The notes below the pieces were generated by a model. That model had not been told where the DNA came from and made no database searches. It saw nothing but the letters and a program-made list of their open reading frames with translations. A program made the position numbers and the translations under genes. Below are positions 2,094 to 9,746 of a stretch of DNA of 64,000 bases, in pieces; position 1 is the first letter of the stretch; every line of letters starts with the position of its first letter. The DNA lies in the NCBI GenBank assembly GCA_014584465.1, contig JACTMU010000075.1:1-64000 (forward strand), given 5' to 3'. Source of the stretch: Pseudomonadota bacterium (lineage in GTDB: Bacteria; Bdellovibrionota; Bdellovibrionia; Bdellovibrionales; JACTMU01).

Positions 2094-2121
2094 TTGACAA
2101 TGCATATATTATGCGTATATC
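2094..2121 (+). promoter_or_regulatory. Sigma-70-type promoter of the imuA-like gene
   Basis: A consensus -35 TTGACA (2094-2099) is followed after 16 bp by TATATC (2116-2121). Transcription would begin near 2128, only a few bases before ATG 2133. That implies a very short leader or leaderless message unless a different hexamer is used. Confidence 0.5.
2102..2120. promoter_or_regulatory. Candidate LexA operator at the imuA promoter
   Basis: The 19-mer GCATATATTATGCGTATAT lies between -35 and -10. It matches 14 of 19 positions of the equivalent site in the lexA promoter (2633-2651). The core is ATAT-N7-GTAT, one base from a palindromic RTAC-N7-GTAY. Assignment to LexA is inference from this sharing. 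Confidence 0.45.
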
Positions 2122-2623: not shown

Positions 2624-2652
2624 TTGCAAGCAGCGTACATTCACCGTATATA
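2624..2652 (+). promoter_or_regulatory. lexA promoter
   Basis: TTGCAA (2624-2629) and TATATA (2647-2652) are spaced by 17 bp; a TATAAT at 2649-2654 overlaps with 19-bp spacing. The predicted leader to ATG 2776 is about 117 nt. Confidence 0.5.
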
Positions 2653-2691
2653 ATGGATTTTCAGAGGCTCATGAGTACGAACAATGTACGG
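2633..2691. promoter_or_regulatory. Two candidate LexA operators at lexA
   Basis: Site 1 (2635-2649) is GTAC-N7-GTAT and overlaps the -10 box. Site 2 (2675-2689) is GTAC-N7-GTAC, 40 bp downstream and beyond the predicted start point. Site 1 with its flanks is the counterpart of the imuA motif. Two sites at the repressor's own promoter fit autoregulation, but binding is not shown. Confidence 0.45.
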
Positions 2692-2775: not shown

Positions 2776-3402
2776 ATGGGACGCCCACCACTGACAGACA
2801 AAGAAGAGCGAGTGTATGAATTCATCAACTCCTACATGAGCCGGTTTGGGCGCCCGCCCACCTATGCTGAGATCAGAGATCGTTTTCGCTACAAAAACAA
2901 CTCCTCCATTCAGAACTTCATTCAGCAGCTTCGGCTTAAGGGGTACATTAAGGCTCCCATTGGATCTAATAAGAAGCGTGCCATCGAACTTGTCGCTAAA
3001 GGACGAATCCGAGAGCTGGAGAGAATTCCTCTTGAGGGAACTGTGGCTGCCGGAGGTCTCACAGAGGCCGTTCATCATCGAGACTATGTCGATGTACCTC
3101 GAAATCTCTTACGCTCAGGCGGAGAGTACTTTGCCTTAAGGGTCAAAGGGGACTCTATGATCGAAGACTGCATCATGAGTGGAGATCTGGTCATCATTCG
3201 ACGCCAAAGCAACGCACAGAATGGTCAAACGGTGGTGGCTCTTGTGGACAACTCAGAGGCCACCATTAAGAGATATTATAAAAAGGAGGATCATATTGAA
3301 CTTGTTCCTGCGAACCCCAGTTATGATCTTATTCGAGTCGATCACAATACGGAGTTTAAGATATTGGGTGTACTGACCAGCGTGATCCGTAAGTTGGAGT
3401 GA
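2776..3402 (+). CDS. lexA: LexA SOS repressor, S24 self-cleaving protease
   Basis: LexA represses SOS genes and cleaves itself when RecA filaments form on damaged DNA. The 208-residue protein has the N-terminal winged helix (PPTYAEIRDRFRYKNNSSIQN), the cleavage site VAAGG with Ala92-Gly93, the nucleophile Ser127 in GDSM and the general base Lys165 in EATIKR; the Ser-Lys spacing of 38 is normal. ATG 2776 is preceded by AAAGGAG and gives the standard MGRPPLTDKE start. The open frame extends 41 codons upstream but that region is leader with operator-like repeats. The TGA stop lies inside one copy of a 16-bp direct repeat. Confidence 0.97.
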   Translation: MGRPPLTDKEERVYEFINSYMSRFGRPPTYAEIRDRFRYKNNSSIQNFIQQLRLKGYIKAPIGSNKKRAIELVAKGRIRELERIPLEGTVAAGGLTEAVHHRDYVDVPRNLLRSGGEYFALRVKGDSMIEDCIMSGDLVIIRRQSNAQNGQTVVALVDNSEATIKRYYKKEDHIELVPANPSYDLIRVDHNTEFKILGVLTSVIRKLE

Positions 3403-3405
3403 ATC
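3390..3405 (+). repeat. 16-bp direct repeat, left copy (lexA 3' end)
   Basis: TAAGTTGGAGTGAATC contains the last lexA codons and stop. The identical sequence occurs at 4210-4225, just before imuB. The pair brackets the toxin-antitoxin segment. Confidence 0.9.
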
Positions 3406-3411
3406 GCCTAG

Positions 3412-3470
3412 ACTCGGATCTGAAGTTAGAACCCAGATCTGGGTTAGAAATGGGGCTTCGAATCCGGGTT
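3412..3470. repeat. Family A repeat copy with internal palindromes
   Basis: The start (CTCGGATCTGAAGTTAGAA) resembles the family A arm at 580-599. It is followed by CAGATCTG and by a palindrome CTTCGAATCCGGGTTCGAAG with 7-bp arms. It marks the left part of the segment inserted between lexA and imuB. Confidence 0.5.
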
Positions 3471-3517
3471 CGAAGGGCTCATGTCCGCGTTTGCTGTAGA
3501 TGCAACGAAATCAAATG

Positions 3518-3554
3518 TTGACTTTGGGCAGTTTTTGTTATAACATGTTATAAC
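3518..3554 (+). promoter_or_regulatory. Toxin-antitoxin promoter with an 18-bp palindromic operator
   Basis: TTGACT (3518-3523) and TAACAT (3541-3546) are 17 bp apart. The perfect palindrome GTTATAACATGTTATAAC (3537-3554) covers the -10 region, as expected for autorepression by a MazE-type antitoxin. Antitoxin ATG 3574 lies 20 bp downstream. Confidence 0.6.
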
Positions 3555-3573
3555 TTTATAGGATGAAAAGGCC

Positions 3574-3837
3574 ATGAAAACGATTGTCAGAAAAGTTGGA
3601 AATTCACTAGGCATCCTCCTCAGCAAGGAGATCACTGGACCTTTACAAATTCATGAATCTGATGAATTTGAGGTCTCTGTGGCCCCCGATGGGCGAACAA
3701 TTTTGATCTCGCCGCTCACTTCGCCTCATGCAGAGTGGGAATCATGGTTGAATGCACATCCTCAGACCCCCTCAGAGGGGCTCCTTCTCGGTGAGGATGA
3801 GGGATTGAGCTCCGACAGTAAAGAATGGGTTTGGTGA
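3574..3837 (+). CDS. MazE-like antitoxin, AbrB/SpoVT swapped-hairpin fold
   Basis: An 87-residue protein. The N-terminal half (TIVRKVGNSLGILLSKEI) is a typical AbrB-type DNA-binding beta hairpin; such antitoxins bind their own operator and, through a disordered acidic tail, block the toxin. Here the tail is acidic and Trp-rich (EWESW, GEDEG, KEWVW), suited to wrap the toxin. The stop overlaps the toxin start (TGATG), so translation is coupled. The pair interrupts the lexA-imuB operon between 16-bp direct repeats, and an 18-bp palindrome sits at its promoter. Family call is firm; the target of regulation beyond its own promoter is unknown. Confidence 0.85.
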   Translation: MKTIVRKVGNSLGILLSKEITGPLQIHESDEFEVSVAPDGRTILISPLTSPHAEWESWLNAHPQTPSEGLLLGEDEGLSSDSKEWVW

Positions 3838-4175
3838 TGAAGCTTGGTGAAGTCTATTTGGTCAGCTTAAGGCCAACTGAAGGTCGAGAAATCATGAGGA
3901 AGGGCCGAGACGAAGCGCGACCCTGCGTTGTTGTTTCTCCAAATCTTTTAAATGAAAAGCTTGGAACCGTCATGGTGGCCCCTATGACCTCCAAGAGAAG
4001 GAAGTTTCCTTGGCGAGCACAGATCGAGTTTAAAGGAAAGCATGGAGAGATTGTAACTGAACAGATCCGCACCTACGATCAATCAAGCCACAGGTTTCTC
4101 AAAAAACTTGGATCCCTTACCAAAGCAGAGATGCAAGATTGTCTCTCTCGACTTCGTCAGATTTTTTCTTGCTGA
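3837..4175 (+). CDS. MazF/PemK-family mRNA interferase toxin
   Basis: A 112-residue toxin. PemK/MazF enzymes are ribosome-independent endoribonucleases that cut single-stranded mRNA at short sites. Visible signatures are the start KLGEVYLVSLRPTEGREI, the strand RPCVVVSPNLLN, TVMVAPMTS, and EIVTEQIRTYD before the final KKLGSLTK helix. The loop EIMRKGRDEARPC is longer than in most members, where EI.K.RP is direct, which could change RNA specificity. ATG 3837 overlaps the antitoxin stop; ATG 3825 is in frame but lies inside the antitoxin gene. Thirty-four bases after the stop comes the right copy of the direct repeat. Confidence 0.88.
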   Translation: MKLGEVYLVSLRPTEGREIMRKGRDEARPCVVVSPNLLNEKLGTVMVAPMTSKRRKFPWRAQIEFKGKHGEIVTEQIRTYDQSSHRFLKKLGSLTKAEMQDCLSRLRQIFSC

Positions 4176-4209
4176 CCTTAAGTTGACCCACGTGATTCGT
4201 TACAAACTA

Positions 4210-4225
4210 TAAGTTGGAGTGAATC
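4210..4225 (+). repeat. 16-bp direct repeat, right copy (imuB leader)
   Basis: Identical to 3390-3405. It carries TTGGAG, the likely ribosome-binding site of imuB (GTG 4232). Removing one copy plus the intervening 804 bp would leave the lexA stop about 12 nt before imuB. Confidence 0.9.
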
Positions 4226-4231
4226 TATAAG

Positions 4232-5536
4232 GTGAATGGCCGTCCTAGACTCAAAGAGAGAGTCATCTGCATTTTAGTTCCCCAAGGATTTGATCCTCTG
4301 CGACTGGCTGAGGCGTGCTACAGGTACACACCTCAGATTGCCGTCGGAGCTCGATCTGTTTTTTTGGAAGTGGCTAAGTGCAGAAGGCTCTACAGCGAAG
4401 AGACGATCCTCTTAAGATGTCAAATTTTAGCTAAGCGATTTGCCATTGAGATTCAAATCGCCGTTGCAGACGACATTCCCACAGCAAAAGCCTATGCCTG
4501 GTATCAAAGAGAGGATCTCCCCATTGAAGCCATGGCCATCTACTTAGATCCCTTTGAAGACCTTCACTCCTCTAGGTTTAAGGCGATTCACAAAACTTCA
4601 AGAATTTTTCGTCAACTGGGCATAAAGAGTCTTAAGGAGTTTTTGGATCTTCCCATAGAGTCGGTCACTGCAAGATTTGGTAGAGAGGCTCTCTTAGCTC
4701 GCCATCAGATGGCACAGGCTCAAGAGTCCCTCCGGCGACCATGGCCGCTTTTTAAACCTCAGCAGAAGATCCTTGAAGGCGAAGAGATTGAAGACCACTG
4801 TCTCATCCAAGAACTAGAGCCTCTCCTCTTTTTGCTCAATGTCGTTGTGGATCGCACTCTTTTAAGGGTTCGAGGAAAGGGGGAACTTTTGATCGCAGCA
4901 CAATTTCGAATTCAACAGGAGAAGTATGATGATGTGCGCGATTTTTTGCGCGTATGGAACTTTGATTTCGCACTTCCTCAATACACTGCTTCGGGAGTTG
5001 TGGACATTCTTCGCGAACGATTGAATCGAGATCTCCAACGCCAACCGCTCTCCTCACCTGTAAAAAAGATCGAGTTTGAGGTGATTCGCACTGTAGCTAG
5101 CTATGGAAAACAGAAGAGCCTCTTCTCACGTAAAGAAGAAGAGGAGGAGAATTTAAATTCCATCATCGCCAGAATCTCCGATCGCTTGGGCATTGAAAAG
5201 GTTTTTTTTGCTTCACCGGTGGAGAGTTATCTCCCTGAACGAAGTTGGACAAGATCTTTGTCCACACCCTCTGAAATCAGAGAGAGTCTTCCTTTACGTC
5301 CCATGCGAATACTTAAAGAACCCCAAATACTCCATCAGGTGGATTGCTATTTTTGTTGCAAGAAGAAGAGATGGAAGATCCAAAGGTGGACAGGACCAGA
5401 ACGCATCTCTGGAGAGTGGTGGCAAGGAGATGAACCACGTGATTACTACCGAGTTCTGACGGAATCAGAAGAAGAGCTGTGGATCTTTGTCAAGCCTGAC
5501 GAGAACACCTACTATTTGCATGGCATATTCGATTAG
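4232..5536 (+). CDS. imuB: ImuB, inactive Y-family polymerase-like mutasome hub
   Basis: ImuB links ImuA and DnaE2 to the sliding clamp during damage-induced mutagenesis. The 434-residue protein keeps the Y-family layout but lacks the catalytic acidic motif at its N terminus (VICILVPQGFDPLRLAEAC), as usual for ImuB. A helix-hairpin-helix (FRQLGIKSLKEFLDLP) follows. QKSLF at residues 294-298 fits a beta-clamp-binding motif. The C-terminal ImuB-specific region is clear: GPERISGEWWQGDEPRDYY and a final LHGIFD. The start is GTG 4232; its Shine-Dalgarno GGAG lies in the duplicated 16-bp repeat. Originally it was probably co-transcribed with lexA. Confidence 0.9.
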   Translation: MNGRPRLKERVICILVPQGFDPLRLAEACYRYTPQIAVGARSVFLEVAKCRRLYSEETILLRCQILAKRFAIEIQIAVADDIPTAKAYAWYQREDLPIEAMAIYLDPFEDLHSSRFKAIHKTSRIFRQLGIKSLKEFLDLPIESVTARFGREALLARHQMAQAQESLRRPWPLFKPQQKILEGEEIEDHCLIQELEPLLFLLNVVVDRTLLRVRGKGELLIAAQFRIQQEKYDDVRDFLRVWNFDFALPQYTASGVVDILRERLNRDLQRQPLSSPVKKIEFEVIRTVASYGKQKSLFSRKEEEEENLNSIIARISDRLGIEKVFFASPVESYLPERSWTRSLSTPSEIRESLPLRPMRILKEPQILHQVDCYFCCKKKRWKIQRWTGPERISGEWWQGDEPRDYYRVLTESEEELWIFVKPDENTYYLHGIFD

Positions 5537-5584
5537 GCCGAGGCCTATCCCAAGTGATACGGCGAGGTCTCTTTTTTTCGACCA

Positions 5585-5644
5585 CTGAGGAGCGAACTGA
5601 GGAGCGAACTGAGGAGCGAACTGAGGAGCGAACTGAGGAGCGAG
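5585..5644 (+). repeat. Five tandem 12-bp repeats, each carrying a Shine-Dalgarno core
   Basis: CTGAGGAGCGAA is repeated five times head to tail (the last copy ends in G), each with GAGGAG. The array ends 7 bp before the dnaE2 ATG at 5652, so only the last copy has normal spacing. The copy number could vary by slippage. Confidence 0.85.
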
Positions 5645-5651
5645 ATGATCT

Positions 5652-8600
5652 ATGACCATCGTAAAAGAAAGAGAGGAGACTTCGGGAGTCTCCTATGCGG
5701 AACTTAAGTGCAAGACCAATTTCTCTTTTTTAGAGGGAGCTTCACATCCTGATGAACTTGTGGAGCGAGCCTACGAGCTTGGCATCACAGCCTTAGCGAT
5801 CACCGATCGCAATGGAGTCTACGGCATCCCTAAGGCTTACTGGAGGGCCAAAGATCTTTCGCCACTTCATTTGATCGTGGGCGCGGAGGTGACCATGGAG
5901 GATGCACCACCTCTGACCCTTCTGGCACAAGATCGTGGGGGCTATGGGCTTTTGTGTCGCATTCTCACCACAAGCCACTGTGGTTCGCCTATGGGTCGCA
6001 AAGCCAAGGGCGAGGCCTCATTGAAGATGAAAGAGCTTATGGATTTTGCAAATGATTCTCGATTTTCATCTCTTTTGGCTTTTCCAGAAGTTGACTCTGA
6101 CTTGAATCTCTTTAAGGAACTTTTTGAAGATCGCCTCTACCTATTTCTCAGTCGCACTCAAGATGGTCATGATCGACGTCGTACGCAAAACGTTTTAGAA
6201 GCTTCCAAACAATGGGAGCTTCCCATTGTGGCCACCAACAATGTTCTTTATCATGCAAAGGAGCGTCGACCTCTTCAAGACTCATTGACCTGCGTTCGCA
6301 CTGGGAAGAGTTTATTGAATGCAGGATTTCACCTACTTCCTAACAGTGAGAGGCATCTTAAATCCCCTTCAGAGATGAAGCGCCTTTTTGAAGACTTACC
6401 AGGAGCTCTAACGCTCACCTTAAAGATTGCGGAAAGATGCACCTTTTCTTTAAAGGAGTTGAGGTATCGCTACCCTTCAGAGTGGATCCCTCAGGGCCAT
6501 ACAGCTCAAACCTACCTTGAGGAGATGACATGGCAAGGGGCACGTGAAAGATACCACTCAGAGTTACCACAAGAGGTGATTGGGCAGCTCAAACATGAGC
6601 TCTCTCTCATCCAACAACTTGAGTTTGCAGACTACTTTTTGACCATTTTTGATATTGTGGAGTTTGCTAAGGGTAGAGAGATTCTCTGTCAAGGACGAGG
6701 AAGTGCCGCAAACAGTGCGGTCTGTTATTGTTTGGGAATCACTGCCATTGATCCTGTGAGGATGAATCTTCTCTTTGAAAGATTTATCTCGGTGGAGCGA
6801 GGCGAACCTCCTGACATTGATGTCGATTTTGAACATGAGCGGCGTGAAGAGGTGATCCAGTACATCTACAAGAAATATGGAAGAGATCGAGCCGCTATGG
6901 TGAGCGCCGTGGTGACCTACCAAAAGAGATCCGCTTTTCGCGAGTTGTCCAAAGCCTTTGGACTTGATGTGGGAACACAATCCGCCAAAGAGGTGATCAA
7001 AAACTTTGATGAACTCTCAGCCTCAAGTCCGATCCGCGACCTTCGCACGCAGATGGAATCTCTGTCTGAAGAGATGCAGGGATTTCCTCGCCACCTCTCC
7101 ATTCATAGTGGCGGGTTTACGCTTTCTGCAGATCCGATGGTTGAGATTGTCCCCATCGAACCTGCAAGAATGGAGGGACGCACCATCATTCAGTGGGATA
7201 AGTATGACCTTGATTACCTGGGACTTTTGAAGGTGGACGTGTTGGCTCTTGGCATGCTTTCAGCGCTGAGGAAAACTCTGAATCACGTCGGGATGAAACT
7301 TCATGAGATCCCCTCGGAGGATCGAAAGACCTATGAGATGATCCAACGAGGTGACACGGTAGGGACCTTTCAAATTGAGTCTCGGGCTCAAATGAATATG
7401 AGTGGAAGACTTAGACCGCGTTCATTCTACGATCTTGTGATCCAAGTGGCCATTGTACGCCCAGGCCCAATTGTAGGAAAGATGGTTCACCCCTATCTGA
7501 AACGACGCCATGGACTTGAGAAGGTCTCCTATCCACATCCTAAACTGAGAGAGATTTTGGGGAAAACTCTGGGGATTCCCCTTTTTCAGGAGCAGGTCAT
7601 GAAAATTGCCATTGAACTTGGAGGATTTACTCCAGGTGAGGCCGATCAACTTCGCCGCGCCATCGGAGCATGGCGAGCCAAAGGATCCATCGAAAAGGTC
7701 GGGAGCCGACTCCTTGAGGGACTACGAAAGAGCGGCATCCCTGATCAATATTCTCACGTGATCTTTGAGCAACTTAAAGGTTTTGCCCACTATGGCTTCC
7801 CCGAATCACACTCAGCTTCCTTTGCGCTCTTGGCCTATGCTTCAGCCTATCTCAGATGTCACCATCCCGCCGAATTTCTCTGTGCCTTGGTGAACTCTCA
7901 ACCAATGGGATTTTACTCCAACCACACCCTTGTGGACGATGCCAAAAGGCATGGAGTCAAAGTGCTCCCCGTGGACATTCAGGAGTCTGAGTACCATTGC
8001 ACTCTGGTTGGGGGTCATGTGCGACTTGGTCTGCGCTTGATTCGCGGATTGAGTCATCAAGATGCTCAAAGAGTCATCGCCATGCGCCCCTATCGAGATC
8101 TCGCTGATTTTCTCTCAAAGACCCACATTGCGGAGGATGTGCTTTTTCAGATGGCCATGGGAGACCTCTTTGCCTCTATGGGTTTGGATCAGCGTCAAAC
8201 CCTGTGGCAACTTCTTGCAAACAAGATCAAAAGATCCTCTCGCCAGCTCAGTCTCTTTGAGGGCCACTCTCTGGATCCACAGACTCCAAATCTTAAAAAA
8301 CTCACAGGAGCCGAAGCGATCTCTCAAGACTACAGCACCTATGGACTCTCTGTCCGAGGCCATCCTATGGCAGAGCTGCGAAAGATTTGCAAACTCCCTA
8401 GAGCTTCCACTTTGAAAGCCAAACAGCGCCCCCCGAAGAGCTACATTCATACTTCAGGTCTTGTTTTGGTTCGCCAACGACCTCCAACTGCCAATGGCGT
8501 CTGTTTTTTGACTATTGAAGATGAATATGGCTTTTTAGATCTTGTCTTCTTCAGCAAGGAGTTCACTCAGTACAAAGAACTCCTTTACCATCACAGCTTT

Positions 8601-8693
8601 CTCTGCGTCTCTGGGCTCATTGAACGAGATGGCCACTCCGTAAGCCTCATCGTCAAAAAGTGTCAGCCACTGCCAGATCTCTTACGCGATTAG
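5652..8693 (+). CDS. dnaE2: DnaE2 (ImuC) error-prone DNA polymerase III alpha subunit
   Basis: A 1013-residue C-family polymerase, within the 1000-1080 range of DnaE2 and shorter than replicative DnaE. The N-terminal PHP domain starts YAELKCKTNFSFLEGASHP. The polymerase core shows the catalytic DIDVDFEHERREEVIQY and QGRGSAANSAVCY, followed by GGFTPGEADQLRRAIGAW and the helix-hairpin-helix and OB regions. QLSLF at residues 865-869 fits a clamp-binding site. It makes untemplated or miscoding insertions opposite lesions together with ImuB and ImuA. It follows imuB after 115 bp that contain a tandem Shine-Dalgarno array, and has no clear promoter of its own. Confidence 0.95.
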   Translation: MTIVKEREETSGVSYAELKCKTNFSFLEGASHPDELVERAYELGITALAITDRNGVYGIPKAYWRAKDLSPLHLIVGAEVTMEDAPPLTLLAQDRGGYGLLCRILTTSHCGSPMGRKAKGEASLKMKELMDFANDSRFSSLLAFPEVDSDLNLFKELFEDRLYLFLSRTQDGHDRRRTQNVLEASKQWELPIVATNNVLYHAKERRPLQDSLTCVRTGKSLLNAGFHLLPNSERHLKSPSEMKRLFEDLPGALTLTLKIAERCTFSLKELRYRYPSEWIPQGHTAQTYLEEMTWQGARERYHSELPQEVIGQLKHELSLIQQLEFADYFLTIFDIVEFAKGREILCQGRGSAANSAVCYCLGITAIDPVRMNLLFERFISVERGEPPDIDVDFEHERREEVIQYIYKKYGRDRAAMVSAVVTYQKRSAFRELSKAFGLDVGTQSAKEVIKNFDELSASSPIRDLRTQMESLSEEMQGFPRHLSIHSGGFTLSADPMVEIVPIEPARMEGRTIIQWDKYDLDYLGLLKVDVLALGMLSALRKTLNHVGMKLHEIPSEDRKTYEMIQRGDTVGTFQIESRAQMNMSGRLRPRSFYDLVIQVAIVRPGPIVGKMVHPYLKRRHGLEKVSYPHPKLREILGKTLGIPLFQEQVMKIAIELGGFTPGEADQLRRAIGAWRAKGSIEKVGSRLLEGLRKSGIPDQYSHVIFEQLKGFAHYGFPESHSASFALLAYASAYLRCHHPAEFLCALVNSQPMGFYSNHTLVDDAKRHGVKVLPVDIQESEYHCTLVGGHVRLGLRLIRGLSHQDAQRVIAMRPYRDLADFLSKTHIAEDVLFQMAMGDLFASMGLDQRQTLWQLLANKIKRSSRQLSLFEGHSLDPQTPNLKKLTGAEAISQDYSTYGLSVRGHPMAELRKICKLPRASTLKAKQRPPKSYIHTSGLVLVRQRPPTANGVCFLTIEDEYGFLDLVFFSKEFTQYKELLYHHSFLCVSGLIERDGHSVSLIVKKCQPLPDLLRD

Positions 8694-9049: not shown

Positions 9050-9373
9050 ATGAGGAGAGTGGTGGGAAATGTTGTGGATGCACCCCTTAAGTTTGTTGTA
9101 ACAAAATCAAGAGGCGCTACTTGGATTAAAAAAGTTGTCCTTTTTGGCTCCAGAGCACGTGGCTCTTCCCATGAACGATCTGATTACGATCTGGCTGTGG
9201 AAGTAGAGAAAGGGTTTGATCAAGAGTGGGTGAGGTGGGCTCTGGATCTCAAAGAGGAGATTCCCACTCTATGCGGAGTGGATCTATTGAAAATGGATTC
9301 AACAATTTCACAAGAGCTTCTTCAACGCATAACAAACGAAGGGATCACGATTTATGACCGAGATCAAGAATAA
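9050..9373 (+). CDS. MNT-type nucleotidyltransferase (antitoxin of an MNT/HEPN pair)
   Basis: A 107-residue minimal nucleotidyltransferase. The signature VVLFGSRARGSSHERSDYDLAV holds the GSxAxG loop and the two metal-binding Asp residues. In MNT/HEPN systems this protein neutralises the partner, in studied cases by AMPylating it near the active site. The start could also be GTG 9062 or 9074; AGGAG at 9052 would suit the first of these. The last 20 bases overlap the HEPN gene, so the two are translationally coupled. The activity is inferred from the family. Confidence 0.85.
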   Translation: MRRVVGNVVDAPLKFVVTKSRGATWIKKVVLFGSRARGSSHERSDYDLAVEVEKGFDQEWVRWALDLKEEIPTLCGVDLLKMDSTISQELLQRITNEGITIYDRDQE

Positions 9374-9746
9374 AGAGGGTCAAAGCCTCATCAATTTTCG
9401 AAGGGCTCTTGCCAATTTGGAGATGTCAGTAGCTCTTCCTGTGAAAGAACCTCGAGATATGTCTGGGATCATCAAGGACTTTGAGATGGCCTACGAACTC
9501 TCCTGGAAAGTTTTGAAGAGGAAGCTTCGTGAAGAGGGTCATCAAACACTGGGAGCAAAAGATGTCTATTCAAAGGCCTATCAGTTGGGATACCTTAAGA
9601 AGGAACAGCCGTGGCTCTCCATGATTCAGGATCGAAATCTTACTGCCCATGTTTACGATGAAGAGTCCGCCCTAAGAATTGTGGAACGAATCAAAAAGAG
9701 CTATTTATCCGAACTTCAAGATCTGGCGGCAATGCTTTCGAACTAA
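9354..9746 (+). CDS. HEPN toxin-like protein (HI0074 family, nucleotidyltransferase substrate-binding)
   Basis: A 130-residue all-helical protein of the HI0074 type. The helix IIKDFEMAYELSWKVLKRKL matches the family, and MIQDRNLTAHVYDE contains R-x4-H (Arg-Asn-Leu-Thr-Ala-His), the RNase motif of HEPN toxins. It pairs with the overlapping MNT gene. The stop overlaps tail-to-tail with that of the opposite glycosyltransferase gene (CTAA). A second, broken pair with reversed gene order lies near 44.2-44.9 kb. Confidence 0.85.
   Translation: MTEIKNKEGQSLINFRRALANLEMSVALPVKEPRDMSGIIKDFEMAYELSWKVLKRKLREEGHQTLGAKDVYSKAYQLGYLKKEQPWLSMIQDRNLTAHVYDEESALRIVERIKKSYLSELQDLAAMLSN

Follow-up and report, generated by a model that had tools for sequence, protein, structure and literature searches.

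Gene content of the SOS locus

The window, i.e. the whole stretch of 64,000 nucleotides analysed here, carries on its forward strand a set of SOS mutagenesis genes in the order imuA-lexA-mazE-mazF-imuB-dnaE2. lexA (2776..3402, +) encodes a protein of 208 amino acids which matches TIGR00498 (E=2e-48); the gene most likely starts at 2776 and is the only copy in the genome. The single imuA gene of the genome (2133..2612, +) lies upstream of lexA. Its product matches the NCBIfam profile ImuA_translesion with E=8e-15, under the cut-off of that profile, and shares 36-49% identity with the ImuA proteins of relatives, compared to which about 20-30 N-terminal residues are missing and about 13 C-terminal residues are extra. 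The imuB gene (4232..5536, +), which begins with GTG, has no match in Pfam or NCBIfam and was assigned by homology and position, its product being 31-47% identical to the same-place open reading frames of the four closest relatives. The N-terminus of ImuB is 8 residues longer than in the relatives, which begin with M-R-V, and judged by this comparison the native start of imuB is lost. imuB is followed by dnaE2 (imuC), encoding an error-prone polymerase (5652..8693, +; PRK05672, 1214 bits). Just downstream of it, at 9050-9746, a nucleotidyltransferase (PF18765/PF01909) is paired with an NTase-substrate-binding/HepT-like protein (PF08780), and this pair resembles a second module of the toxin-antitoxin type next to the SOS operon.

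Three putative LexA boxes were found in front of these genes. The one in the imuA promoter (2103..2117, +; CATATATTATGCGTA) has one mismatch to CGTAYATTNNNCGTA and is located between a TTGACA -35 element at 2094 and the imuA start. The other two precede lexA, at 2634..2648 on the forward strand (CGTACATTCACCGTA) and at 2676..2690 on the reverse strand (CGTACATTGTTCGTA). The direct-repeat form of CGTAYATTNNNCGTA (CGTA-N7-CGTA) occurs at five sites in the genome if one mismatch is allowed, three of them in this operon; at this stringency the motif is not specific by itself, since the reversed control gave seven matches. Similar boxes are present upstream of lexA in the relatives G010, G008 and G041, and the direct repeat CGTA-N7-CGTA is put forward as the putative LexA box of this clade. 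It differs from the LexA motif reported for Bdellovibrio bacteriovorus, TTAC-N3-GTAA (PMC8565304).

The gaps of the operon contain further repeats. Decayed ends of a MITE occupy 3411..3470 (+), with the terminal inverted repeat (TIR) GACTCGGATCTGAAGTTAGAA, a second copy AACCCAGATCTG..TTAGAAATGGG and a degenerate right end (..ATCCGGGTT) recognised by eye. A second remnant, which carries a T7 run, lies between imuB and dnaE2 (5534..5586) next to a perfect tandem repeat of five 12-bp units (ACTGAGGAGCGA, 5584-5643), so that two of the operon's gaps hold MITE remnants. The family is defined by the TIR AACCCGGATCTGAAATTAGAAATGG, with about 90 matches in the genome and none for the reversed control; its members are 76-184 bp long and 11 of 13 copies show 2-bp target duplications. 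In the window it is also found at 580-693 and possibly, as a weak 14-mer, at 2603-2616.

The mazEF pair and its predicted transcription

Between lexA and imuB lies a MazE/MazF pair. The toxin gene, of the mazF/pemK type (3837..4175, +), starts at 3837 and overlaps the mazE stop by 1 nt. Its product belongs to the MazF/PemK family according to PF02452 (E=9e-23; 81.1 bits against a curated cut-off of 23.1) and matches MazF chains of the PDB with E of about 1e-5. The mazE-type antitoxin gene (3574..3837, +) encodes an AbrB/MazE N-terminus whose profile matches stay below the cut-offs, with E=5e-4 and 20.4 bits for PF04014 (cut-off 24.7) and E=3e-6 and 27.4 bits for TIGR02609. Despite these scores it can be assigned as the antitoxin immediately upstream of the toxin, by the overlap of the two genes and by the context of the homologues: among those inspected, a MazE-like gene is found directly upstream of the intact mazF genes. 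A promoter-like site, identified by consensus match only, precedes mazE (TTGACT-17-TAACAT; 3518..3546, +), and a perfect palindrome of 18 bp (GTTATAACATGTTATAAC, 3537..3554) spans its -10 element. A palindrome overlapping the promoter is the usual appearance of an autoregulated toxin-antitoxin (TA) operator. The palindrome is likely the putative autorepressor operator of MazE(F), and the pair is predicted to be active as an ordinary autoregulated MazEF-type TA pair.

Relatives of this MazF have a patchy distribution. They occur in 22 of 369 Bdellovibrionota genomes including this one (E<=1e-12), with identities of at most 47% across the greater part of their length, and plasmid-borne relatives reach up to 46%. 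The closest stretch, 62% identity over 52 residues, is located in G026 (L074, G026:C56:43975-44195), where the gene appears to be broken into two frames and stands in a different setting, beside an acyl-CoA dehydrogenase-like open reading frame. No MazF was found in viral contigs and phage records. Base composition was considered as an indicator of horizontal origin and proved uninformative, with GC contents of 0.489 for mazE and 0.457 for mazF against 0.477 for the window.

mazE is encoded on the same strand as lexA and begins 171 nt past the lexA stop. Terminator-like sites of the forward strand are absent both from the lexA-mazE gap (3403-3573) and from the mazF-imuB gap (4176-4231). Since no such site separates lexA from mazE, SOS transcripts that start at the lexA promoter are expected to continue through mazEF, and SOS read-through into the pair is plausible. 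Transcription of mazEF would start at the palindrome-controlled promoter of the pair and, when DNA is damaged, also reach it from the lexA promoter by read-through. Conversely, imuB-dnaE2 may be fed by the mazEF promoter, which would lend these genes some LexA-independent transcription.

The strongest alternative concerns function only and is compatible with the two-step insertion history described below. It states that there is no SOS coupling in practice: mazEF would be expressed from its own promoter alone, as a hitchhiker or as an addiction module that protects the operon or is tolerated by it. This is a real possibility, though one to which we give less than even weight. The promoter-like site with its perfect palindrome speaks for it, as do the lack of any LexA-like box in 3395-3600 or 4170-4270 and the patchy, TA-like distribution of MazF in other genomic settings. 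However, the location 171 nt from lexA on the same strand and the lack of a terminator-like site make some read-through expected, and the E. coli yafNO pair provides a case where read-through does occur (PMC2814082). If it is real here as well, the locus would add an SOS-linked TA pair in Bdellovibrionales to the well-studied E. coli cases and could serve as a natural experiment on whether imuB-dnaE2 can be uncoupled from LexA by a TA promoter. A more far-reaching version, in which the mRNA interferase MazF has become part of the SOS repressor's own transcript, so that damage raises LexA, antitoxin, toxin and polymerase parts jointly while MazEF feedback at the internal promoter sets the ImuB-DnaE2 level, is speculative and rather unlikely. 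If true, it would describe a mutagenesis operon tuned by a TA pair, in which ImuA has been separated and placed under a LexA box of its own.

The direct repeat and the probable history of the operon

An exact 16-bp repeat at the lexA stop and again before imuB had been described in the original prediction. Both copies of TAAGTTGGAGTGAATC (3390-3405 and 4210-4225) were recovered and are the sole occurrences in the 3.75 Mb assembly with zero or one mismatch allowed, the reversed control giving no match. Their spacing is 820 nt, composed of 16 nt of repeat and 804 nt of intervening sequence, and what had been described between them is likewise in place: a family A repeat, identical with the MITE TIR, the promoter-like site with its perfect palindrome and the MazE/MazF pair. 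For the window, a first-order Markov model predicts that about 1.1 pairs of identical 16-mers arise per 64 kb, with 0.075 expected at a distance of up to 1 kb; in view of the latter value, the closeness of the two copies counts as modest evidence on its own. What makes a coincidence very unlikely is where they lie, one at the lexA stop and the other just ahead of imuB: simple arithmetic on the same model gives a chance of about 1e-6 that the copies come to lie no more than about 40 nt from the lexA stop and from the imuB start.

The left copy (3390..3405, +) is the native 3' end of lexA and codes for K-L-E-stop. In the right copy (4210..4225, +), a duplicate of the lexA tail, the same codons stand before imuB and encode nothing; it is therefore the displaced one. 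This reading of the right copy, together with the LexA C-terminus of the closest relative G041, which is R-R-L-E-stop, resolves the direction of the duplication: the sequence to the left of imuB would be a former lexA end. The GGAG at 4216-4219, which precedes the imuB GTG by 12 nt, is part of the right copy. Consequently the flanking genes have stayed translatable, as originally proposed: lexA has its stop in the left copy, and the Shine-Dalgarno sequence of imuB is kept in the right one. With the insert left out, the LexA stop would be followed by 9 nt (ATCTATAAG) and the imuB GTG, for which the GGAG of the lexA tail would serve as ribosome-binding site; this suggests that lexA once abutted imuB with a 9-bp gap and that the TA pair arrived later. 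A second 9-mer, CCTAGACTC, is common to the 3' sides of both repeats (3407-3415 and 4244-4252). Its pairing has a probability of about 0.003 when any two pieces of 30 nt are compared and of 0.056 by local-alignment shuffles; it hints at a longer duplication and may also be due to chance. As proof of such a duplication it was dropped and is regarded as weak support, its last bases overlapping the MITE end.

The exact 16-bp repeat fits the flanking direct repeat expected of a transposon-type insertion with target duplication. The cassette ends, by contrast, show no inverted-repeat pair, and within the insert no transposase, integrase or other gene besides mazEF was identified; MITE ends are present at its left side only. 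A target duplication of 16 bp is long for most transposons. The MITE was considered as the mover of mazEF and rejected, given the 2-bp target duplications of its family and the lack of a TIR at the right end of the cassette; with duplications of that size it leaves the 16-bp repeat unexplained.

The ancestral gene order was deduced from about 40 related loci, none of them from the same family or genus, in which some genomes are counted twice because two collections were used; the closest relatives compared are of the same order. In genome contigs a single-sequence query gave no ImuB relatives, whereas an alignment query gave 11 named loci, including Bdellovibrionales MAGs and related MAGs. Most commonly the genes run lexA-imuA-imuB-dnaE2, separated by short gaps. 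With one exception, in which imuA was undetected, every one of these loci has imuA immediately 5' of imuB; lexA is divergent in a few, and in some the retrieved stretch does not reach or show lexA. mazE and mazF had no match in any of them, and none of the relatives examined has mazEF at this position. In the present genome imuA precedes lexA instead of standing directly upstream of imuB. The compact lexA-imuB junction of the original prediction hence appears in a different light. It most likely existed before the cassette, as the displaced lexA tail suggests, but it is derived, because imuA directly precedes imuB in nearly all related loci. The objection that the lexA-imuB gap was never short applies to the deep ancestor and probably not to the immediate one.

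These findings point to a two-step history, relocation of imuA followed by insertion of the TA pair. Starting from lexA-imuA-imuB-dnaE2, imuA would first have moved to the 5' side of lexA, under a LexA-like promoter of its own, leaving lexA closely joined to imuB. One tandem duplication of lexA-imuA and two deletions would suffice for this step and would account for the truncated ImuA start and for the lost native start of ImuB. This route is a proposal based on the end truncations, since remnants of the second copy were not found: alignments of imuA to 3403-3573 or 4176-4262 were no better than shuffles. In the second step a mazEF segment would have entered the new lexA-imuB junction, duplicating at least 16 bp. 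The insertion of mazEF is probable, and we regard the explanation as a whole, mazEF embedded in the lexA-imuB-dnaE2 SOS operon in two steps, as likely.

Repeat and cassette could instead be by-products of one complex rearrangement, in which the lexA-imuA region was duplicated and mazEF was captured during break repair. Loss of imuA and gain of mazEF affected the same interval, repeats and MITE remnants at the operon gaps (3411-3470, 5534-5586 and the weak 14-mer at 2603-2616) suggest repeated breakage, and the cassette ends are devoid of mobile-element hallmarks. We nevertheless consider such a single event unlikely, as the right copy joins the lexA tail straight to the imuB start and no remnant of imuA lies between them, for which a pre-existing lexA-imuB junction is the simplest explanation. 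That the repeat reflects mere coincidence or the functional reuse of a Shine-Dalgarno-like sequence is highly improbable, for although 0.075 close pairs are expected by chance and GGAG serves both genes, 16 exact bases that copy the lexA tail at two operon junctions, unique in the assembly and so improbably placed, exceed the about 5 bases which Shine-Dalgarno selection would keep.

Comparison with known systems

The arrangement adds a further case to a known type, a TA pair in an SOS translesion operon. It illustrates cleanly how a TA pair can settle in a conserved stress operon and leave both flanking genes unbroken, and it is at the same time an example of a reordered mutagenesis cassette. 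Among the papers searched, none mentions imuB and mazF along with lexA and TA.

The nearest parallel is dinB-yafN-yafO-yafP of E. coli, where the mitomycin C induction of yafNO has been traced to the upstream dinB promoter (PMC2814082). Both loci combine a type II mRNA-interferase TA pair that has its own promoter with a position downstream of an SOS promoter (putative in the present case, where the boxes are LexA-like) in a translesion-synthesis operon. However, the E. coli pair is RelE-like and follows dinB, whereas the pair described here is MazEF-like and lies inside the operon between lexA and imuB. With the lexA-imuA-imuB-dnaE2 cassette (PMC3901139) the locus shares LexA, ImuA, ImuB and DnaE2 as well as a LexA-like operator in front; it differs in the order imuA-lexA-mazEF-imuB-dnaE2 and in the separate LexA-like box of imuA. 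A lexA-imuB-imuC arrangement has been reported for Deinococcus ficus (PMC3901139). The TA pair itself resembles MazEF/PemIK (Kis-Kid) in its PF02452 toxin, its AbrB/MazE-like antitoxin, the overlapping genes with the antitoxin first and the palindromic putative operator, and the motifs RPxVVxSP, P-x-T and (E/D)Q(I/V)(R/K) are conserved. The identity to E. coli MazF is about 26%, and the loop before the RP motif (EGREIMRKGRDEARP) is longer than in E. coli MazF and the aligned homologues.
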